Source: Myxococcota bacterium (lineage in GTDB: Bacteria > Myxococcota_A > Polyangia > HGW-17). From it: 44,491 nt of DNA. The stretch is taken from assembly GCA_018821305.1 (NCBI GenBank), contig JAHJMN010000207.1, forward strand, positions 1-44,491, given 5' to 3'. The position numbers were made by a program, and so were the translations under genes. Positions 8,146 through 44,491 of the stretch are shown here, one piece after another; the stretch's first letter is position 1; each line of letters starts with the position of its first letter. The notes beneath the pieces are model-generated. The model was not told the origin of the DNA and ran no database searches. It worked only from the letters and a program-made list of their open reading frames with translations.

Positions 8146-10122
8146 ATGATGAGACTTCTCATTGCCGGAACATGCATAATTCTCTCTTTCGCCGGATCAT
8201 TTCTGTTTAATCGCCATTTTGAGAAATATATTTCAAGGCAAATGAGCAGGGATCTGAGTTCGGGATTTTTCCATGGTCAGAAAATACCGTCTCCATCCAT
8301 CAGTTTCTACACAGGGTCCACAATTAAACTGAATGATATGAAAATCAAATTGGGGAAATTCGACGCTTTTGTTGATGAAGCGGTACTGAAACCCAACTGG
8401 TTAAATTTATTTTCGAAGGGGTCAATTATCAGTGCCGATTTATACAATCCGGAAATGAGGGTAGATCTGGCATATTTTGAGGGTCCATCTCTGGCGAGCA
8501 ACAAGAGTCGCAATGCACTGAAATATATGCTGAAAAAGATTTCTATAAATTATCATAACGGTAATCTCAGAATACGACAGGGAAGGCATCTGTTTCACTT
8601 CCTGGGCTTTAACGGAAAAAGTGATCTTAAGGGTAATCTTCATATAAATTCACCACTTATCAAATATTCAGGTAGTCGTGGTGTCTGGGCAGGGAAAAAT
8701 ATGAAAGCCCATATCCGGGGTACTTCCCTTGAGCAGATGCATATTAATTTCCTCACGGTTTATACCCCGGGTGGGGAAAACTATAATCTTTCCGGCAATC
8801 TTCAAAAAATAACTTCGGATGTATACACCGTTTCTATGGAGTGTTTCCGCGAATCCGAGTACTTTAAATTTCAAGGTACGGGAAGTATCTGGGACCGACA
8901 TTTTAAAATGAAAATAAAAGGATATACGGACATGAATCTTCTTGAGAAGTATTTCAGGAAGTTCTTTCCGGCATTTGATATTCCTCATTTTATGAGTGGA
9001 AAAGTACAAGGGGAGGCGAGCCTTAATTATAAAAACAAACTGGAAGAAATGACTGCCGATGTTACATTTCCGGGAGTTTCAACCATAGCCGGGCCCTTAA
9101 GTTCCGGGAGCCATATCTGGAAACCGGTGCTGGCAAAACTGAAGCTCGATAACCGGGTAAAAGAAAAGAAACTTGATGTTAAATTTTCCAGTGGAGGGAT
9201 TTCCGGCGATCTGAATGTCGTTAGAGAAAAGTCAGGCTTTATTGTTGGTAAATTCAATCTGCATGAAACCACATGCGATGAGCTCTATAAATGGTTTCCC
9301 GATGGTTTTTTAGGTTCACTAAGTGGTATGAGACTTTCGGGAGAAACTGGTTGGAGCTCTGCTTTTTCAATAAATCCGGCCAATCCGGCATCATTTAATG
9401 CAAATGGGCATGTCCACGGTAGTGGCTGCCGTATTGAGAAGTTTCCTGAAAAAGTAGACGTGCAGGAGCTTAAAAACCCGGTAAAAGTGATTCTTAAAGA
9501 TGATTTGGGAAGAAAAATCAGCCGAGTTCTAGGCCCGGAAAATCCTGATTTCATACCATTTGAAAAGATTCCGGCACACCTTTTTGGAGCCTTTGTGGCT
9601 CTGGAAGATCGCCGCTTTATGCACCACAACGGATTTGACTGGCCCCTGATTGTTAAAGCAATCGGGTTCAATCTTGAACGCCGTCAATTCCGAAAAGGTG
9701 CCAGCAGCATCAGTCAACAACTTGTTAAGAACCTGTACCTGTCCGGAGAAAGAACCATTGCAAGGAAAATAGAAGAGGGTGTAATTACCTGGATGATGGA
9801 AAAAACTCTGGATAAAAAGCGCATTTTCGAACTTTACATTAATATCATTGAAATGGGGCCCGGCCTCAGAGGTATAAATGATGGAGCAAGGACGTATTTC
9901 CAGCGTACCGCTGACAATCTTGCACCCAGGATGAGTATTCACCTGGCAAGTTTGACTCCTGCGCCTCGTTACTACTGGCAGATGTTTCGCAAAAAAGCCG
10001 TGCCTGACCGCTGGACTTCCATCATCCGGAAAAACCTGCAAAAACTGTATAGAATGGGAACAATTACGAGGGAAGAATTGAAGCAGGAACTTGAACTGGG
10101 CCTTGTGATTTCAGACTACTGA
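8146..10122 (+). CDS. AsmA-like domain fused to GT51 peptidoglycan glycosyltransferase
   Basis: The 658-residue product has an N-terminal membrane anchor (residues 3-20), then a long beta-rich region (about 50-440) beginning with the AsmA-type pattern of GSTIKLNDMKIKL and LKPNWLNLFSKGSI. The C-terminal third is a class GT51 transglycosylase that polymerises lipid II: ALEDRRFMHHNGFDW (motif 1 with catalytic Glu), GASSISQQLVKN (motif 2), and RKIEEGVITWMMEKTLDKKRI (motif 3, partial quotation of a continuous segment). No transpeptidase domain follows, so it is monofunctional. The ATG at 8146 follows the upstream TGA by one base and has no ribosome-binding site of its own, implying translational coupling. 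The AsmA-like label is from sequence style and needs a profile search. Confidence 0.85.
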   Translation: MMRLLIAGTCIILSFAGSFLFNRHFEKYISRQMSRDLSSGFFHGQKIPSPSISFYTGSTIKLNDMKIKLGKFDAFVDEAVLKPNWLNLFSKGSIISADLYNPEMRVDLAYFEGPSLASNKSRNALKYMLKKISINYHNGNLRIRQGRHLFHFLGFNGKSDLKGNLHINSPLIKYSGSRGVWAGKNMKAHIRGTSLEQMHINFLTVYTPGGENYNLSGNLQKITSDVYTVSMECFRESEYFKFQGTGSIWDRHFKMKIKGYTDMNLLEKYFRKFFPAFDIPHFMSGKVQGEASLNYKNKLEEMTADVTFPGVSTIAGPLSSGSHIWKPVLAKLKLDNRVKEKKLDVKFSSGGISGDLNVVREKSGFIVGKFNLHETTCDELYKWFPDGFLGSLSGMRLSGETGWSSAFSINPANPASFNANGHVHGSGCRIEKFPEKVDVQELKNPVKVILKDDLGRKISRVLGPENPDFIPFEKIPAHLFGAFVALEDRRFMHHNGFDWPLIVKAIGFNLERRQFRKGASSISQQLVKNLYLSGERTIARKIEEGVITWMMEKTLDKKRIFELYINIIEMGPGLRGINDGARTYFQRTADNLAPRMSIHLASLTPAPRYYWQMFRKKAVPDRWTSIIRKNLQKLYRMGTITREELKQELELGLVISDY

Positions 10123-12510: not shown

Positions 12511-13620
12511 TTAATTTTCCTGTCCTGTGCTTAGCAGGTATTCCCTGATGAAATTATCCAGATCTCCATCCAAAACAGCTTCAACATTGCCGAGTTTGAG
12601 ATCCGTGCGATGATCCGTTACCAGACGGTACGGTGCCAGAACATAAGAACGAATCTGGCTACCGAAATCAATTTTCTGCTTTACGCCAACAATGCCCTCC
12701 ATTTTCTTTTCCTGCTCCAGTTTTTTGAGGTGGTAAAGTTTTGCTTTGAGCATCCTCATTGCCATATTTTTATTCTGGAACTGGCTTCTTTCATTCTGGC
12801 ATGCTGCAACGAGACCCGTGGGGAGGTGAGTAAGTCTGACGGCACTTTCAGTTTTGTTAACGTGCTGCCCTCCGGCCCCGGAAGAACGATATACATCTAC
12901 CCGGAGATCCTCATCTCTGACTTCAATTTCAATTTCGTCATTCAGATCCGGGGTTATGAGAACGCTGGCGAAACTCGTGTGGCGTCGCGCATTTGCGTCA
13001 AATGGGCTGATTCGAACAAGTCGGTGTACTCCGCTTTCGCCGCGGAGAAGGCCGTAAACATAGGGGCCTTCTATGAGGATTGTGCATGAGGCTATTCCTG
13101 CTTCAGCTCCTTCAGTTACATCTAGAAGTGTTGCTTTAAAATTCTTGAATTGAGCCCATCGGAGATACATTCGCTGAAGCATTTCTGCCCAATCCATTGC
13201 TTCCACACCACCAGCTCCTGCATTGATAGCCACCAGCGCATTATTGCGGTCCATATCACCACAGAGCATCCGGGTCATCTCTTTTTTATCCACGGCCTCT
13301 GAAACGGTTACCAGTTCTGTATATCCTTCTTCCAGGGCGCCATCATCTTTTTCTTCCTGAGCCATGGAAACCAGAAGTTTTGCATCTTCAAACTGATTAT
13401 TGATTTTAGTCCAGAAATCCAGAGTATCGCGGATTTCAGAAGCTTTACGAAGAACTTCCTGGGCCTCGTTACGATTATCCCAGAAACCTTCTGATGCTGT
13501 CTGCTCATCAAGGGTTTTCAGTTCTTCAGTAATATGCTCGATGTCCAGATGCCTTTCCATGGCATCAAGCTTTTCTCTTATTGATTTAATGGTTTCTTTG
13601 ATAATATAAAGGTCAACCAT
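12511..13620 (-). CDS. prfB: Peptide chain release factor 2
   Basis: RF2 recognises UGA and UAA stop codons and triggers peptide release on the ribosome. The 369-residue protein has the N-terminal helical domain, the codon-recognition tripeptide in VRISPFDANARRH (SPF, diagnostic of RF2) and the catalytic GGQ in SSGAGGQHVNKTESAVRLTH. The reading frame is continuous through the region (after MERHLDIEH) where many bacteria use an autoregulatory +1 frameshift, and I see no in-frame UGA with a preceding CUU, so that control appears absent. It sits between the exchanger gene (27 bases upstream) and the permease gene (2 bases downstream). Confidence 0.96.
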   Translation of the reverse strand: MVDLYIIKETIKSIREKLDAMERHLDIEHITEELKTLDEQTASEGFWDNRNEAQEVLRKASEIRDTLDFWTKINNQFEDAKLLVSMAQEEKDDGALEEGYTELVTVSEAVDKKEMTRMLCGDMDRNNALVAINAGAGGVEAMDWAEMLQRMYLRWAQFKNFKATLLDVTEGAEAGIASCTILIEGPYVYGLLRGESGVHRLVRISPFDANARRHTSFASVLITPDLNDEIEIEVRDEDLRVDVYRSSGAGGQHVNKTESAVRLTHLPTGLVAACQNERSQFQNKNMAMRMLKAKLYHLKKLEQEKKMEGIVGVKQKIDFGSQIRSYVLAPYRLVTDHRTDLKLGNVEAVLDGDLDNFIREYLLSTGQEN

Positions 13621-13647
13621 GATGGCGAGTTCTCCGAGGGGTTTTTA

Positions 13648-14586
13648 TCATTTAATGACGAGCCAGGCAAGGTATCCTGAATATGCGGCGAGTAAAAACA
13701 AACCTTCAAGCCGCGATACCTTTCTCCCAGTGAGCATAATGGGGAACAAAATCAGTGTAAATGAGCTTAAGACAGCGAGATCAATAAAACTGAATGTTCC
13801 GGATTTTGCCGAAATAGGATGGATAACGGAAGTCAGGCCGATGACAAAAAGAATATTGAAAATGTTACTGCCAACTACATTTCCGATTGCAATTTCCGAT
13901 TGCTTTTTTATTGCGGCAACAACTGATGCTGCCAGTTCGGGAAGTGAAGTACCTATAGCAACAATTGTAAGGCCAATCACTTTCTCACTCATTCCTGCCC
14001 AGTCAGCAATTTTGACAGCTCCTTTGACTACAAGATGGCCTCCTGCAACCAGTAAAACGATGCCAAGAAGAATAAGTCCCATTGATAAAGCAGTGGACTT
14101 TTGTTTTTCAGGCTTCTCTTCGTCATTTTTTTCACTTCCGAAAAAGATGAGGAAAAGAGTATATGCGGCTCCTGAAATTAAAAGTATTGCACCTTCGATG
14201 CGTGAGATTTTACTGTCGCGGAGAAAAACAATAAATGCTGCAGTTGCCAAAAGCATGACAAAATAATCTCTGCGGAGAATTGAGCGTGCAACGGGAACTC
14301 CGGCAATCAAAGCTGTAAAACCGAGTATTAATCCGATATTTCCGATATTACTCCCAAGGACGTTTCCCAGGGCAAGTTCCGGTTTCCCCTGAATTGAAGA
14401 AGCGGTGCTGACAACCAGTTCTGGAAGACTGGTACCATAACTGACGATGGTAAGACCCACAACGGTCACCGAAATGCCCAGTCTTATTGCTATGGCACTT
14501 CCCCCGGAGATCAGAAAATCTGCACCGCCAATAAGACAGGCGATACCCCCGGCCAGCATCAGAAATATTATCAGGACATCAATCAT
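13648..14586 (-). CDS. Calcium/sodium antiporter of the CaCA (YrbG) family
   Basis: The 312-residue inner-membrane protein has about ten hydrophobic segments and the two inverted alpha repeats that define this exchanger family: GLTIVSYGTSLPEL with GNVLGSNIGNIGL in the first half and GLTIVAIGTSLPELAAS with GNVVGSNIFNIL in the second. The charged loop between the halves includes GSEKNDEEKPEKQKS. Conserved Glu in both GTSLPEL motifs is the ion-coordinating residue in the family. It belongs to the same minus-strand run as tatD and prfB. Direction and ions are inferred from family knowledge. Confidence 0.93.
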   Translation of the reverse strand: MIDVLIIFLMLAGGIACLIGGADFLISGGSAIAIRLGISVTVVGLTIVSYGTSLPELVVSTASSIQGKPELALGNVLGSNIGNIGLILGFTALIAGVPVARSILRRDYFVMLLATAAFIVFLRDSKISRIEGAILLISGAAYTLFLIFFGSEKNDEEKPEKQKSTALSMGLILLGIVLLVAGGHLVVKGAVKIADWAGMSEKVIGLTIVAIGTSLPELAASVVAAIKKQSEIAIGNVVGSNIFNILFVIGLTSVIHPISAKSGTFSFIDLAVLSSFTLILFPIMLTGRKVSRLEGLFLLAAYSGYLAWLVIK

Positions 14587-39798: not shown

Positions 39799-39828
39799 TT
39801 GACGTATAGAAAATTTCCGGTATATAGT
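39799..39828 (+). promoter_or_regulatory. Sigma-70-type promoter candidate for the DUF4215-like gene
   Basis: TTGACG (39799-39804) and TATAGT (39823-39828) are 18 bases apart; TATATA at 39821 gives 16. The ribosome-binding site CCGGAGG at 39855 and ATG at 39868 follow at sensible distance. Confidence 0.5.
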
Positions 39829-39867
39829 GTTGCTAGTTGTAAAATTACATTTCACCGGAGGTTTTCC

Positions 39868-41154
39868 ATGCTTAAAAAATCATTAATTCTCGCTTTTGCC
39901 CTTGCTGCCATGATCGGTTGTGATGATGATGACAGTAATAACTCAAACAACACAAACAATAATAATACCAACGCAGTATGCGGTAATTCTATCGTAGATA
40001 CAGGCGAAGAATGCGATGACGGTACAGCTAATGCCGATGAACCTGACGCCTGCCGCACGGACTGCATGCTCCCCACATGTGGTGATGGCATTTTAGACAC
40101 TGATGAAGAATGCGACTATGGCGCAGCTAACAGCCTTGAACCCAATTCCGAATGTACGCCTGATTGCCTCTTGCCATCCTGCGGCGATGGAAATCTCAGT
40201 ACTTCAAACGGTGAAGAATGCGATGACGGTACAGGAAATGCCGATGAACCTGACGCCTGCCGCCTTGATTGCTCACTGCCTGCCTGTGGTGATGGCATTG
40301 TCGATATTCTAAGTGAAACGGGCCCGGAAAGCGGTCCCGAAGAATGCGACGATGGCGAAAACAATATAATTGGTCGGAATACCTGCCGCCCGGATTGTTC
40401 AATGCCTTATTGCGGTGACGGTATTGTCGACGATGATCCAGAATTCGGCGAAGAGTGTGACACTGGCGCTCTCGGTCTTGATGACGGCTGCGACGATAAC
40501 TGCCAGATTGTGATGGGCTGGAGTTGTTCCGAAGAAACTGAACTTTCACCATCCATCTGCAATCCCGGCTGTGGTAACGGTATTGTTTCCGGTATCGAGC
40601 TAACGGCAGGTCGCTGTGATGATGGTGATATGGTTACTGGTAACGGTTGCTCCGCCCAATGTTTTGTCGAACCGGGCTGGGTTTGTACATCAGAACCTGC
40701 AGGCTCAACTTCCGTTTGTCTTCCCATTTGCGGAGATGGTCTTTTAGTTCAGGGTGAAACTTGTGACCAGGGCGGTGGCAACGCAGTAAATGGTGATGGG
40801 TGCAATTCAACCTGTCACGTTGAAGTTGGCTGGAACTGCTCAGGTACCCCCTCAATTTGTAATCCAACTTGCGGAGATGGTCTTATATTGGGCGCCGAAA
40901 ACTGTGATCAGGGCAACGGCAACGTGTCAAATAATGACGGTTGCAGTTCAACCTGCCAGATAGAAAACGGTTGGATATGCACAGGTACCCCATCAATGTG
41001 TGTTCCAATTTGCGGCGATGGTATTATAGCTGGTGGCGAAAGTTGCGATCAGGGCAACGGCAACACGTCAAGTAATGACGGCTGCAGTGCAACCTGCCAG
41101 GTAGAAACGGGCTGGACCTGCACGGGCTCTCCATCCGTATGTACTGAAAATTGA
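39868..41154 (+). CDS. Cys-rich repeat (DUF4215-like) surface lipoprotein
   Basis: The 428-residue product has a lipobox (AAMIGC, Cys17), DDDD and a short Asn/Thr linker, then many CGDG/CGNG repeats. The first five are short units (CGDGI...EECDDG...ACRTDC). The last three are longer and nearly identical (CGDG...ENCDQGNGN...DGCSSTCQ...GWxCTGTPSxC). This is the Myxococcus Cys-rich repeat of family DUF4215; paired Cys predict a disulfide-rich rod outside the cell. The ATG at 39868 follows CCGGAGG. Its function is probably adhesion or scaffold, by analogy only. Confidence 0.85.
   Translation: MLKKSLILAFALAAMIGCDDDDSNNSNNTNNNNTNAVCGNSIVDTGEECDDGTANADEPDACRTDCMLPTCGDGILDTDEECDYGAANSLEPNSECTPDCLLPSCGDGNLSTSNGEECDDGTGNADEPDACRLDCSLPACGDGIVDILSETGPESGPEECDDGENNIIGRNTCRPDCSMPYCGDGIVDDDPEFGEECDTGALGLDDGCDDNCQIVMGWSCSEETELSPSICNPGCGNGIVSGIELTAGRCDDGDMVTGNGCSAQCFVEPGWVCTSEPAGSTSVCLPICGDGLLVQGETCDQGGGNAVNGDGCNSTCHVEVGWNCSGTPSICNPTCGDGLILGAENCDQGNGNVSNNDGCSSTCQIENGWICTGTPSMCVPICGDGIIAGGESCDQGNGNTSSNDGCSATCQVETGWTCTGSPSVCTEN
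40729..41151 (+). repeat. Three tandem 141-bp repeats within the Cys-rich gene
   Basis: TGCGG at 40729, 40870 and 41011 marks three units of exactly 141 bases (47 codons). Blocks such as GATCAGGGCAACGGCAAC and ATGACGG are shared between the second and third units. The match at DNA level indicates recent duplication. Confidence 0.7.
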
Positions 41155-41236
41155 TTGTTTTATAACTGTTTTTCAGTTCTTCTTTCTCACAACCTCATTG
41201 TTCTAACATTTCAAAAACATTTATAATTTGCTGGAA

Positions 41237-41290
41237 AGTTCGTGTCCTGAAATTCAATTTTGATAAAAATTGAATTTCAGGACACGAACT
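41237..41290. repeat. Perfect 25-bp palindrome, minimal family B element (B3)
   Basis: A 25-base arm beginning AGTTCGTGTCCTGAAATTC (41237-41261) is followed by loop GATA and its exact reverse complement (41266-41290). The arm equals the terminal repeat of the longer family B elements, so this may be an internally deleted copy. It lies after the Cys-rich gene and could also stop transcription, though no T-run follows. Confidence 0.75.
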
Positions 41291-41332
41291 AAATAAAGAA
41301 GAAAGTGTAAGCGTTTTTACGTGCTTTTTCCG

Positions 41333-41360
41333 TTGAAAACTCTCTGAACGGGGATATATT
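41333..41360 (+). promoter_or_regulatory. Sigma-70-type promoter candidate for the hydrolase gene
   Basis: TTGAAA (41333-41338) and TATATT (41355-41360) are 16 bases apart. GGAGG at 41384 and the ATG at 41395 follow. A closer ATG at 41390 opens only ATG-AAA-TGA and is too close to the ribosome-binding site to be used. Confidence 0.45.
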
Positions 41361-41394
41361 GCATTAAACCTTTTAAACTCTCCGGAGGCATGAA

Positions 41395-42507
41395 ATGAAG
41401 AAAGTACTTTTAAGTCTAGCGATGTTTCTTACAATGGTTTTCAGTGCCTGCGATGATGACACTGCCAGCAACAATTCAAACAATACAAATAATACGAACA
41501 CTAATAATATCAACAATACGAACAATACAAATACAAATACAAATAATACTAATAACACGAATACGAACAATACAAACAATACCAATACTAACAATATAAA
41601 TAATACCAATAATACCAACAATGACATCTATGTTTCGGATGCGTCCATCTGGGGGCCCGGTGGCCTTGAAGTCGAAGTAATGGGTTTTGACGCGGATACT
41701 TTCGGGTCAAACGTTGATTTTACTGTTTATGCTCCCGCTTTTGGTGGCCGCTACCCCGTAATCATATTTCAGCATGGATTCATGCTCGATGCCACATGGT
41801 TCAGTTCCATTCTCGGTACCATTGCTTCCCACGGTTTCGTGGTTGTCGCGCCGCAAATGTATGGTGCTGATAACAATCCCATCGGTAAGCCTACCGCCGC
41901 CGAAGAAGCGGAACAGGCATACAACTTTCTTCAGTGGGTTCACCTGAATCTTGAATCGGAACTTGATGTTACAATTTCCCTCGACCATGTGGGGTACCTC
42001 GGACACAGCCGTGGAGGCAAAGTCAGTTGGATTTTACTGGACTCGTGCAATGATTGTGCAATGGCAGTAGCAGGAATTGATCCCGTTGATGGGACAGGGG
42101 GCCCCATGGGGGGAGAAGCCCGCGTAATTGATGGCCCTTTCAACTTCTCATTTCCGTCATATGTGATGGGAACCGAATTCGGAACACAGTCAGCCAGCAT
42201 GTTTTCCGGTGCATGCGCTCCCGAAGGTGATAATTACGTCCAGTTTTACGAAGCCAGCGCCTCTCCAGCCTTTTTCAGTCTAGCCCTCGGTTATGGCCAT
42301 CTCGACTTCCTTGACGATCTCGAAAGTTGTATTATATGCAGCACTTGCGTGTCGGCAGAAGGTGAGCATGGCCCCTTCCGCGATTTCACAGCGGCCCAGA
42401 TGGTGGGTTTCTTCCGTGGTGCTCTCAGCGGCGATACTGCAAGTTACTCAGACCTTGAAGATTCCACCTCCAGCCCCATCGAATACGATTTCGAATCCCA
42501 CTTTTAG
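41395..42507 (+). CDS. Chlorophyllase-like alpha/beta-hydrolase lipoprotein
   Basis: The 370-residue product has a lipobox (MVFSAC, Cys19), DDD and an Asn/Thr linker of about 45 residues. The domain after residue 80 is an alpha/beta hydrolase: oxyanion segment YPVIIFQHGFM, nucleophile elbow VGYLGHSRGGK (Ser in GHSRGG), the chlorophyllase-type GIDPVDG carrying the likely acid Asp, and LGYGHLDFLDD with the likely His. Two Cys pairs (CNDC, CIICSTC) may form disulfides. The substrate is unknown, an ester by family. Its 3' end is 8 bases from the convergent cupredoxin gene. Confidence 0.85.
   Translation: MKKVLLSLAMFLTMVFSACDDDTASNNSNNTNNTNTNNINNTNNTNTNTNNTNNTNTNNTNNTNTNNINNTNNTNNDIYVSDASIWGPGGLEVEVMGFDADTFGSNVDFTVYAPAFGGRYPVIIFQHGFMLDATWFSSILGTIASHGFVVVAPQMYGADNNPIGKPTAAEEAEQAYNFLQWVHLNLESELDVTISLDHVGYLGHSRGGKVSWILLDSCNDCAMAVAGIDPVDGTGGPMGGEARVIDGPFNFSFPSYVMGTEFGTQSASMFSGACAPEGDNYVQFYEASASPAFFSLALGYGHLDFLDDLESCIICSTCVSAEGEHGPFRDFTAAQMVGFFRGALSGDTASYSDLEDSTSSPIEYDFESHF
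41470..41622 (+). repeat. Asn/Thr-codon microsatellite in the hydrolase gene
   Basis: A run of AAY and ACN codons of 9- and 15-base periods, for example AATACGAACAATACAAATAC, encodes the lipoprotein linker. It is the longest of four such runs in the window. Slippage in whole units would change linker length without loss of frame. Confidence 0.7.
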
Positions 42508-42515
42508 TGTGCTTA

Positions 42516-43385
42516 TTACTGAATTATAATCTGGCCTCGCATGGATGCAGTATGGACACCACAGCGATATCCAGTGAGTACGCTTTCAAGGCTTGGGGCT
42601 ATAGTGAATTGTAATGCTCCCGTTACCTCATCTTCCATCCACAGGATATCCTCATTTTCTTCTAATCCCCCAGGATCTTCCTGAGATAGTAAAACAGTGT
42701 CTTCAGCAGCAGTAGTTCCCATGGTAACCAGTTCATATGGGTGTGCTACAGGAGCAGAATTTACTATTTCATACCGCCATCCAGCATATAGAGTAAGAGT
42801 TTCATTGTTTTCCTCGGTACCAACAAGAGTCTCGAAAAATACAGGTTCCACTGAGGAGACAGTAAATGCTGCCATCCCCACATTTTCCACAAAAATACGC
42901 ACAGCAGGAGTAGTTGCAGGGACAGTTACTGTGAATTCTTCAATAACTGGTTCTGAATTGAGGGTTTGAGCAACATCATCTCCATCTGGTTCGAAGGTAC
43001 CAGCACTTCCTGCATCAGAAAGAAGGTGTGCTTCCAGAATTTCCGAATCCATGACTGGCCGCATAAGATCTACGTTCAGAAATTGATTTTCTCCATCAGC
43101 GACAGAAATATATCCAAGAATAGTACCGTCATGGGTTTCAGAGGCCTCCCGGATCGCGATCCATCCATTTCCGTTTGATGTTGCTCCTGTGACAGTGATG
43201 CGAGTTGAAAGTGACTCCAGAGTCTGCGACGCAACTGAAATGGCAGGGTCAAGAGGCAAATTATTGGTGTTATTAGTGTTATTGGTGTTTGTGTTGTTAG
43301 TGTTATTAGAGTTATTGTTCGAATTATCATCATCGCAACCAGTTGCAATTAACAAAATGGCAAGTAAGAAAAATAAGTGTTTCAT
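42516..43385 (-). CDS. Lipoprotein with cupredoxin (blue-copper) domain
   Basis: The 289-residue product has a lipobox (LLIATGC, Cys17), DDD and an Asn/Thr linker, then a beta-rich module SLSTRITVTGAT...VADGENQFLNVDLMRPV of DUF7282 style. The C-terminal 110 residues look like plastocyanin: first His in APVAHPYELV and the loop GYRCGVHTASMRGQIII supplying Cys, His and Met copper ligands (C-x2-H-x3-M). This predicts an extracytoplasmic one-electron carrier. The ATG has GGAT upstream. Loss of Cys or His would argue against, but all four ligands are present. Confidence 0.83.
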   Translation of the reverse strand: MKHLFFLLAILLIATGCDDDNSNNNSNNTNNTNTNNTNNTNNLPLDPAISVASQTLESLSTRITVTGATSNGNGWIAIREASETHDGTILGYISVADGENQFLNVDLMRPVMDSEILEAHLLSDAGSAGTFEPDGDDVAQTLNSEPVIEEFTVTVPATTPAVRIFVENVGMAAFTVSSVEPVFFETLVGTEENNETLTLYAGWRYEIVNSAPVAHPYELVTMGTTAAEDTVLLSQEDPGGLEENEDILWMEDEVTGALQFTIAPSLESVLTGYRCGVHTASMRGQIIIQ

Positions 43386-43608: not shown

Positions 43609-43836
43609 ATGATAGGATTGACATGGCCAAACTTATCAGGTGTTAACGTTATGATAAAACTGGATAAATACACTTCTTTATGTAGATTGTCCCCAGCGGA
43701 AATTAGAGACAACATTGAACTGTTCAGGCAACTGATTTCAGATGGTAAATATTATTGCCGGAAATGTGGAAGAGTTGCCCATCTTAAGAGTAATCTTTGC
43801 CAACCATCCCCAATCATCGAAGATGAAGGTAAATAG
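43609..43836 (+). CDS. Small zinc-ribbon protein
   Basis: The 75-residue product ends with YYCRKCGRVAHLKSNLCQP, which offers three Cys and a His for a small metal site; it resembles short CxxCGR...LCxP proteins of deltaproteobacteria. The ATG at 43609 follows GGGG; an ATG at 43651 (MIKLDKYTSL) would give 61 residues. The TAG stop shares AG with the start of family B copy B2, so the C-terminus may have been trimmed by it. Function is unknown. Confidence 0.6.
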   Translation: MIGLTWPNLSGVNVMIKLDKYTSLCRLSPAEIRDNIELFRQLISDGKYYCRKCGRVAHLKSNLCQPSPIIEDEGK

Positions 43837-44035
43837 TTCGTGTCCTGTAATTCGCTTCGCGAAGGATTTTATTAAAAATCCTAACAGGCCACTACAATAA
43901 ATTCAACACCTTGCGGTTACTGTCTAAAACGTATTTCCGAAGGAAATCGTCAAAGACGACAACTGTTTTCGCAGAAAACAGTGAGAGTCCTGTACAAAAA
44001 ATCGACGGAAAATTTGATTTCCGGTATTTCAGAAC
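43835..44035 (+). repeat. Family B palindromic repeat, copy B2 (201 bp)
   Basis: It starts AGTTCGTGTCCTGTAATTC, contains the hairpins GGATTTTATTAAAAATCC and ACTGTTTTCGCAGAAAACAG (GAAAACAGT arm), shares CAACACCTTGCGGTTACTGTC in parts with copy B1, and ends near TATTTCAGAAC. Compared with B1 it has about 75 extra bases after GTTACTGTC. No ORF is present. Confidence 0.65.
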
Positions 44036-44086
44036 GCCTTTATTTAGCCCGGAGTTTTAACTCCGGGATCGCAACGTAACGCGCCT

Positions 44087-44137
44087 CCTTCCCCTGTTTC
44101 ATGTGCCGCCTTTGGCGGCGCATGAAACAGGGGAAGG
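44087..44137. repeat. Strong 24-bp hairpin with TTT loop
   Basis: CCTTCCCCTGTTTCATG-T-GCCGCC (arm 44087-44110) pairs with 44114-44137; the only non-Watson-Crick pair is a U-G. A GGAGTTTTAACTCC palindrome lies just upstream (about 44050). No T-run follows. Confidence 0.7.
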
Positions 44138-44156
44138 GACCAAACGATAATTCAAA

Positions 44157-44382
44157 CCCGGCTCTTGCGAGCCGGGCTGGAAAGCTGTCGCCTGTGTGGT
44201 CACAGGCTCATGATCCGCGGATTCACCGTCGCATGGGGATTCAGGGGTGATGTCATTCAGGCTGATGTGATTACCCCGCCACCCACCAGGGATTTTCGAT
44301 ACCTCCGGTATCTTTAATCCCTTCGCTAATATGTGTGAGCCAGGCTTTGGCTCATTTTCCGATGTTTCTTTTTTGGGTGGGC
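44157..44382 (+). ncRNA. Candidate structured RNA block of unknown class
   Basis: Hairpins follow one another: CCCGGCTC/GAGCCGGG (44157-44176), GCCTGTG/CACAGGC (44190-44207), and then a three-way arrangement. GCCACCCA (44278-44285) can pair with TGGGTGG (44374-44380), enclosing AGGGATT-GATACC/GGTATC-AATCCCT (44288-44322) and GAGCCA/TGGCTC (44337-44353). There is no ORF. Which strand is expressed is not known. I match it to no named RNA family. Confidence 0.45.
44249..44276 (+). repeat. 28-base direct repeat, first copy
   Basis: GATGTCATTCAGGCTGATGT continues eight more bases to 44276 and recurs exactly at 44459-44486. The flanks GGGGT and ACCCC allow it to close as a hairpin loop. Two copies 210 bases apart bracket the structured block. 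Confidence 0.8.
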
Positions 44383-44458
44383 AGATCGAATTCCGAATCG
44401 CGTAATTCCGTGTTTTATGATCCGTTCATTTAAGATCGATGTTTAGATTCGGGGGGGA

Positions 44459-44486
44459 GATGTCATTCAGGCTGATGTGATTACCC
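44459..44486 (+). repeat. 28-base direct repeat, second copy
   Basis: This is an exact copy of 44249-44276, preceded by a run of G. It lies at the edge of the window, so more copies may follow. The interval 44383-44458 between it and the structured block shows no ORF or clear structure. Confidence 0.8.
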
Positions 44487-44491
44487 TCTTC

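Follow-up and report, generated by a model that had tools for sequence, protein, structure and literature searches.

Organization of the Locus

The window, by which we mean the whole 44,491-nucleotide stretch of a Myxococcota bacterium contig that was analysed, ends on its right in a block of densely folded DNA. A preliminary description had placed the block at 44050 to 44491, bracketed it by an exact 28-base repeat, and suggested that it was a novel ncRNA or the end of a larger element. The strong stems it reported are real: the fold of 44040-44491 reaches -200.9 kcal/mol on the plus strand (z -8.6) and -187.0 kcal/mol on the minus strand (z -9.1), with no shuffled sequence as stable on either strand. 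The minimum-energy fold likewise contains the multi-stem arrangement (about 44277-44382) that GCCACCCA/TGGGTGG closes. No open reading frame of at least 90 amino acids overlaps the block, and the GC content of the array to which it belongs is 0.51, versus a mean of 0.44 for this genome's array-bearing loci, in agreement with its description as non-coding and GC-rich. ARAGORN found neither tRNA nor tmRNA in the window, and Rfam gave no match there at the gathering threshold.

The borders required revision. Hairpins belonging to the block itself start at 44033-44048, directly after a distinct hairpin-rich element. The right border is merely the end of the contig: its final 141 nt match the end of contig C103 exactly, and there the array runs on for about 0.5 kb in the order E-D-D-A-B-C. 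The block is the start of a mosaic array of roughly 1 kb, cut off by the contig end. The 28-nt repeat, GATGTCATTCAGGCTGATGTGATTACCC, is indeed exact (44249-44276 and 44459-44486, nested in a 33-nt repeat at 97%), but it brackets module E in the second half and not the block as a whole. The features are as follows.

43833-44032, plus strand: hairpin element of a second, MITE-like family; left end TAGTTCGTGTCCTG, right terminal repeat cut off at the start of module A
44033-44067, plus strand: module A, truncated; outer-hairpin remnant AACGCC, TTAG foot at 44044-44047, main hairpin CCCGGAGTTTTAACTCCGGG at 44048-44067
44087-44137, no strand assigned: module B, long palindrome with 24-nt arms and a 3-nt loop, 23 of 24 positions paired
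44157-44207, plus strand: module C; main hairpin CCCGGCTCTTGCGAGCCGGG at 44157-44176, second hairpin GCCTGTGTGGTCACAGGC at 44190-44207
44208-44277, plus strand: module D (connector), first copy, containing the first 28-nt repeat
44277-44382, plus strand: module E, the multi-stem unit
44391-44491, plus strand: leading segment (F) and second copy of module D, containing the second 28-nt repeat; reaches the contig end and continues in C103

The MITE-like family has 53 matches in its own genome and is unrelated to the array that it adjoins; copies with both ends occur at loci L069 and L070, and the right end resembles CAGGACAGTAACTA elsewhere. Farther to the left, 39799-43385 encodes three adjacent putative lipoproteins with Asn/Thr-rich (NNTNNTN) stretches, whose domains include DUF4215 repeats, a chlorophyllase-like hydrolase, and DUF7282.

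A Dispersed Family of Modular Arrays

The 452-nt block has 123 matches in its own 5.2-Mb genome, many of them at contig ends. A DNA search of 38 relatives, from genus to class, returned no match, and the same-genus genome G001 contained no Y1_Tnp gene, no match to the Rfam family Acido-Lenti-1 (RF01687), and no match to the block. Searching about 350 kb of sequence with profiles defined the modules and gave 44 matches for A, 32 for B, 54 for C, 134 for D, and 44 for E; a pattern scan of genome contigs for the module C hairpin returned none. Over 32 loci the modules follow the order A-B-C-D-E-D..., with D as the connector and periods of about 129 nt (C-D) and 210 nt (E-D). The arrays are intergenic, often between convergent genes, and up to 1.8 kb long; many are internal to contigs with genes on both sides. 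Copy number, sequence, and unit order differ from site to site.

In E-value mode, RF01687 matched module A (minus strand, 20.7 bits) and module C (plus strand, 21.4 bits), both below the gathering score of 37, so that the Rfam check suggested earlier yields a resemblance and nothing at curated thresholds. The matches on opposite strands mark A and C as one kind of two-hairpin unit in opposite orientations, and A-B-C therefore as a REPIN-like pair around the palindrome B of about 25 bp. At E values up to 10 the genome contains 131 RF01687 matches, the best of which scores 33.9 bits against the same gathering score.

Copies of module E differ by the gain or loss of a whole hairpin, CACCGTTTTTCGCAGAAAAACGGTG (L048, about 10080-10106; L042, about 2905-2935; C103). 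The C103 copy next to the window end carries an extra hairpin that is missing from the window's E, as if such hairpins came and went as units.

Transposase Genes Flanked by Array Modules

Three Y1_Tnp genes were found in this genome, two of which are 86% identical and share the layout A-B-tnpA-B'-A', with A-B to the left and its inverted counterpart B'-A' to the right (L068 and L069). Both flanked proteins pass the NCBIfam IS200 model NF033573 (81.1 and 78.6 bits; cut-off, 55) and fail the model for REP-associated tyrosine transposases, NF047646 (23-25 bits; cut-off, 80). The TnpA motifs in this genome are DHIH, WQ, and YIEKQEIHH or YIEKQELHH, and the proteins sit on a long branch of the TnpA tree. 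Neither module D nor module E was found at any tnpA end. Beyond the left end of the L069 element and close to it, at about 1080-1320, another repeat, beginning CGCGATCGCCAGAACCGAGAACCGCCCACAACC, occurs three times in tandem.

One of the two tnpA elements, with its A-B ends, lies inside a CRISPR array of 36-nt repeats that adjoins a type I-G csb2 gene (L112, G000:C8, about 13461-14523). The insertion point is a spacer/repeat boundary between the leader-proximal repeat and the remaining array, and the A-B end is duplicated there.

Acido-Lenti-1 at the Ends of Related tnpA Genes

A scan of named genomes provided a survey set of 80 related tnpA loci, all of which were searched with RF01687; phylum names are those on the TnpA tree. 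There were 96 matches, 60 of them within 150 nt of tnpA, and 54 of these 60 were in the inverted-terminal arrangement, a count in which tandem copies at one locus enter separately (47 of 52 when only the nearest match per side is taken). Match density was 2.5 per kb near tnpA versus 0.18 farther out. At least one correctly placed match was present at 33 of the 80 loci, with both ends represented at 14; at the E value used, correctly placed matches were missing from 47. The nearest matches lay 34-88 nt upstream and 38-113 nt downstream of the gene. Correctly placed matches above the cut-off came from Acidobacteriota, Lentisphaerota, Planctomycetota, Verrucomicrobiota, Thermodesulfobacteriota, Myxococcota, and one Bacteroidota bin, and among the relatives above the cut-off are L200 (57.9 bits) and L190 (53.0 bits).

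Closer to the window's organism, other genomes of its class supplied 17 tnpA loci, and an adjacent RF01687 match was present at one alone, that of the closest relative (L075). The class's nearest TnpA relative (G027), whose TnpA is identical to that of a Deltaproteobacteria/Myxococcota bin (L178), has inverted matches on both sides, one of them above the cut-off; the identity makes a Myxococcota-related source the most likely one for the window. Within the same family of genomes, locus L076 (G004; tnpA at about 232-645) has other inverted hairpins, beginning CCCGGGGT and GAGCGTGC, that RF01687 does not match; the ends of these tnpA elements may differ between lineages. Some tnpA loci have tandem end units with periods of 66-72 nt. 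Genome G089 contains inverted RF01687 pairs, though its only detected Y1 gene is partial, and the unit-palindrome-unit plan recurs with unrelated sequence both there and in G057.

The TnpA tree did not support one common origin for the terminal unit; the label is scattered over it (23 changes, versus 27 in shuffles), perhaps because weak ends drop below detection. The main Bacteroidota clade of the tree was without RF01687 matches, and Cyanobacteria are not among the loci.

Conservation of the Helices and of the Foot

The two window hairpins were aligned without gaps to 39 RF01687 matches beside tnpA, giving 36 distinct sequences. Pairing in the main helix reaches 98.3%, double changes number 63, and a single G-U pair occurs in 288 cells; this signal is lost when the alignment is slid or shuffled. 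The window hairpins share the two-hairpin architecture of an 8-bp stem followed by CTA, with CTG for CTA in the window's module C. Watson-Crick pairs account for 744 of 761 in module B, over 24 different arms, and paralogous copies inflate this covariation. RNA helices usually contain more G-U pairs; that they are nearly absent here, and that both strands are used, indicates palindromes of DNA. Covariation, proposed as a check for an ncRNA, is present, but in hairpins at the ends of transposase genes.

At the hairpin base, on the strand reading into the element, 33 of the 39 units across phyla carry NTAG, 11 of them GTAG. The window genome has TTAG or ATAG at module A and TCAG or CCAG at module C, neither GTAG nor GTGG. 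REPs carry GTAG at the same hairpin-base position (PMC2817692; PMC3733652).

Two RNA candidates were rejected. A hammerhead ribozyme on the minus strand of module C has the core AUCAUGA where CUGANGA is required, its GAAA varies as GACA, GATA, and GCAA among copies, and no hammerhead model matched at E values up to 5. MicroRNA matches in the Rfam E-value mode are chance matches to long palindromes.

Origin of the Array

We read the block as the left portion of a mosaic array in the manner of REPs and BIMEs, made of non-autonomous hairpins that are moved as single-stranded DNA by an IS200-like Y1 (HUH) transposase, and put the probability of this reading at roughly 0.75. The observations on which it is built are the repeat family and its module grammar, the inverted units that flank tnpA in this genome and in further phyla, the compensated palindromes, and the tnpA element in the CRISPR array. 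Counting against it are the RF01687 scores of only about 21 bits for the window's modules, the 47 of 80 tnpA loci without a correctly placed match, the absence of modules D and E from the tnpA ends, and the long branch of this genome's TnpAs. The A-B-C section would go back to the ends of the A-B-tnpA-B'-A' element, as two inverted terminal units with a long palindrome between them. TnpA most likely recognises these terminal hairpins on single-stranded DNA, by an NTAG-type foot and 8-bp hairpin followed by the second hairpin. If it cuts and joins there, copies that lack tnpA would thereby spread between genes. The arrays may then lengthen by tandem duplication or by recombination via connector D, and modules D and E presumably travel with the same system. 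The earlier suggestion that the block was the end of a larger element was right, since it belongs to a dispersed hairpin array with transposase-linked parts.

Palindromic repeats might also spread by themselves, amplified by recombination or replication slippage, or mobilised by another enzyme, with tnpA merely inserted beside existing hairpins. Such an origin would suit modules D and E, which have no transposase link, as well as the tandem form of the arrays and the abundance of the second MITE family, and template switching can keep palindromes perfect. It is unlikely all the same: across many phyla, related tnpA genes have the same inverted unit on either side at fixed distances, which chance insertion would not produce.

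The idea that the block encodes a structured RNA, such as an sRNA, a 3'-end stabiliser, or an attenuator, with the repeats as copies of that RNA, is less probable still. Strong folding, covariation, the filing of the related Acido-Lenti-1 as RNA in Rfam, and the intergenic position of the arrays, often between convergent genes, all speak for it. Against it, both strands fold equally well, the units occur in both orientations and are inverted around tnpA, the Watson-Crick palindromes are almost free of G-U pairs, and the multi-copy units vary by site in number, sequence, and order and were not found in relatives; the novel ncRNA of the preliminary description is not supported. A collapsed or chimeric repeat produced by assembly, suggested by the many copies at contig ends and a genome in 216 contigs, is hardly credible given the many arrays inside contigs with genes on both sides and the exact 141-nt overlap that joins the window end to C103.

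The survey leads to a broader proposal, which we consider probable: Acido-Lenti-1 would be no RNA family; it would be the double hairpin terminating the elements of a widespread, subclass 1.2-like group of IS200-like transposases, whose ends multiply without the gene, as REPs do, in at least seven phyla, and form kilobase mosaic arrays in the present genome. If this is true, a predicted ncRNA family becomes a set of transposon ends and its annotations need correction; ends, and hence a candidate substrate, are supplied for a transposase subclass said to have no IS properties; REP-like elements acquire a further source besides RAYTs and class 3 proteins; and the arrays provide an extreme example of hairpins that break assemblies.

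Comparison with Known Systems

The closest kind of system is that of REPs, BIMEs, and REPINs with their RAYTs (TnpA_REP), organised as REPtrons. As in REPtrons, a Y1 gene has inverted flanking hairpins with a tetranucleotide foot, and there are many intergenic copies without tnpA, in inverted pairs and clusters of compensated palindromes; the genes at L068 and L069 are flanked by inverted palindromic units that are multi-copy in the genome (123 matches), as a REPtron is defined. Unlike in REPtrons, the transposase is IS200-like with a Y---Q--HH motif and is no RAYT, the end is a double hairpin with an NTAG/NCAG foot instead of GTAG, and there are a palindrome of about 25 bp, species-specific modules D and E, and arrays of up to 1.8 kb.

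With Acido-Lenti-1, modules A and C, its best counterparts here, share the 8-bp stem, 4-nt loop, CTA, linker, and second short hairpin. They differ in score (at most 33.9 bits in this genome versus 37) and in context, which is that of transposon ends and not of an RNA gene. The source paper and Rfam catalogue the family as RNA, and we found no publication linking it to this transposase group in a search that lay mostly outside the subscription literature.

The proteins resemble TnpA subclass 1.2 of the IS200/IS605 family (PMC6006769) in their DH[VI]H, WQ, and Y---Q--HH motifs, their length of about 142-150 aa, their single core domain, and their low copy number; Y---Q--HH is present in 79 of the 80 related TnpAs, the likeness being set by motifs and the IS200 model. 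According to Quentin et al. 2018 (PMC6006769), members of that subclass come mostly from Cyanobacteria and Bacteroidetes, generally lack terminal secondary structures, and have no IS properties, whereas the present analysis places double-hairpin ends in other phyla. The lack of RF01687 matches in the main Bacteroidota clade may be why the subclass was described as structure-less. Class 3 TnpA_Y1 (PMC6006769) and the TIRYTs with their TIRtrons (PMC3733652) offer a last parallel, in that they too combine a Y1 gene with atypical multi-copy flanking structures in overlapping phyla. Most TIRYTs, however, fall in subclass 2.1, and class 3 is distinguished from the present group by its NHVH, W[TA], and Y----Q motifs and its CnGA foot (PMC6006769).
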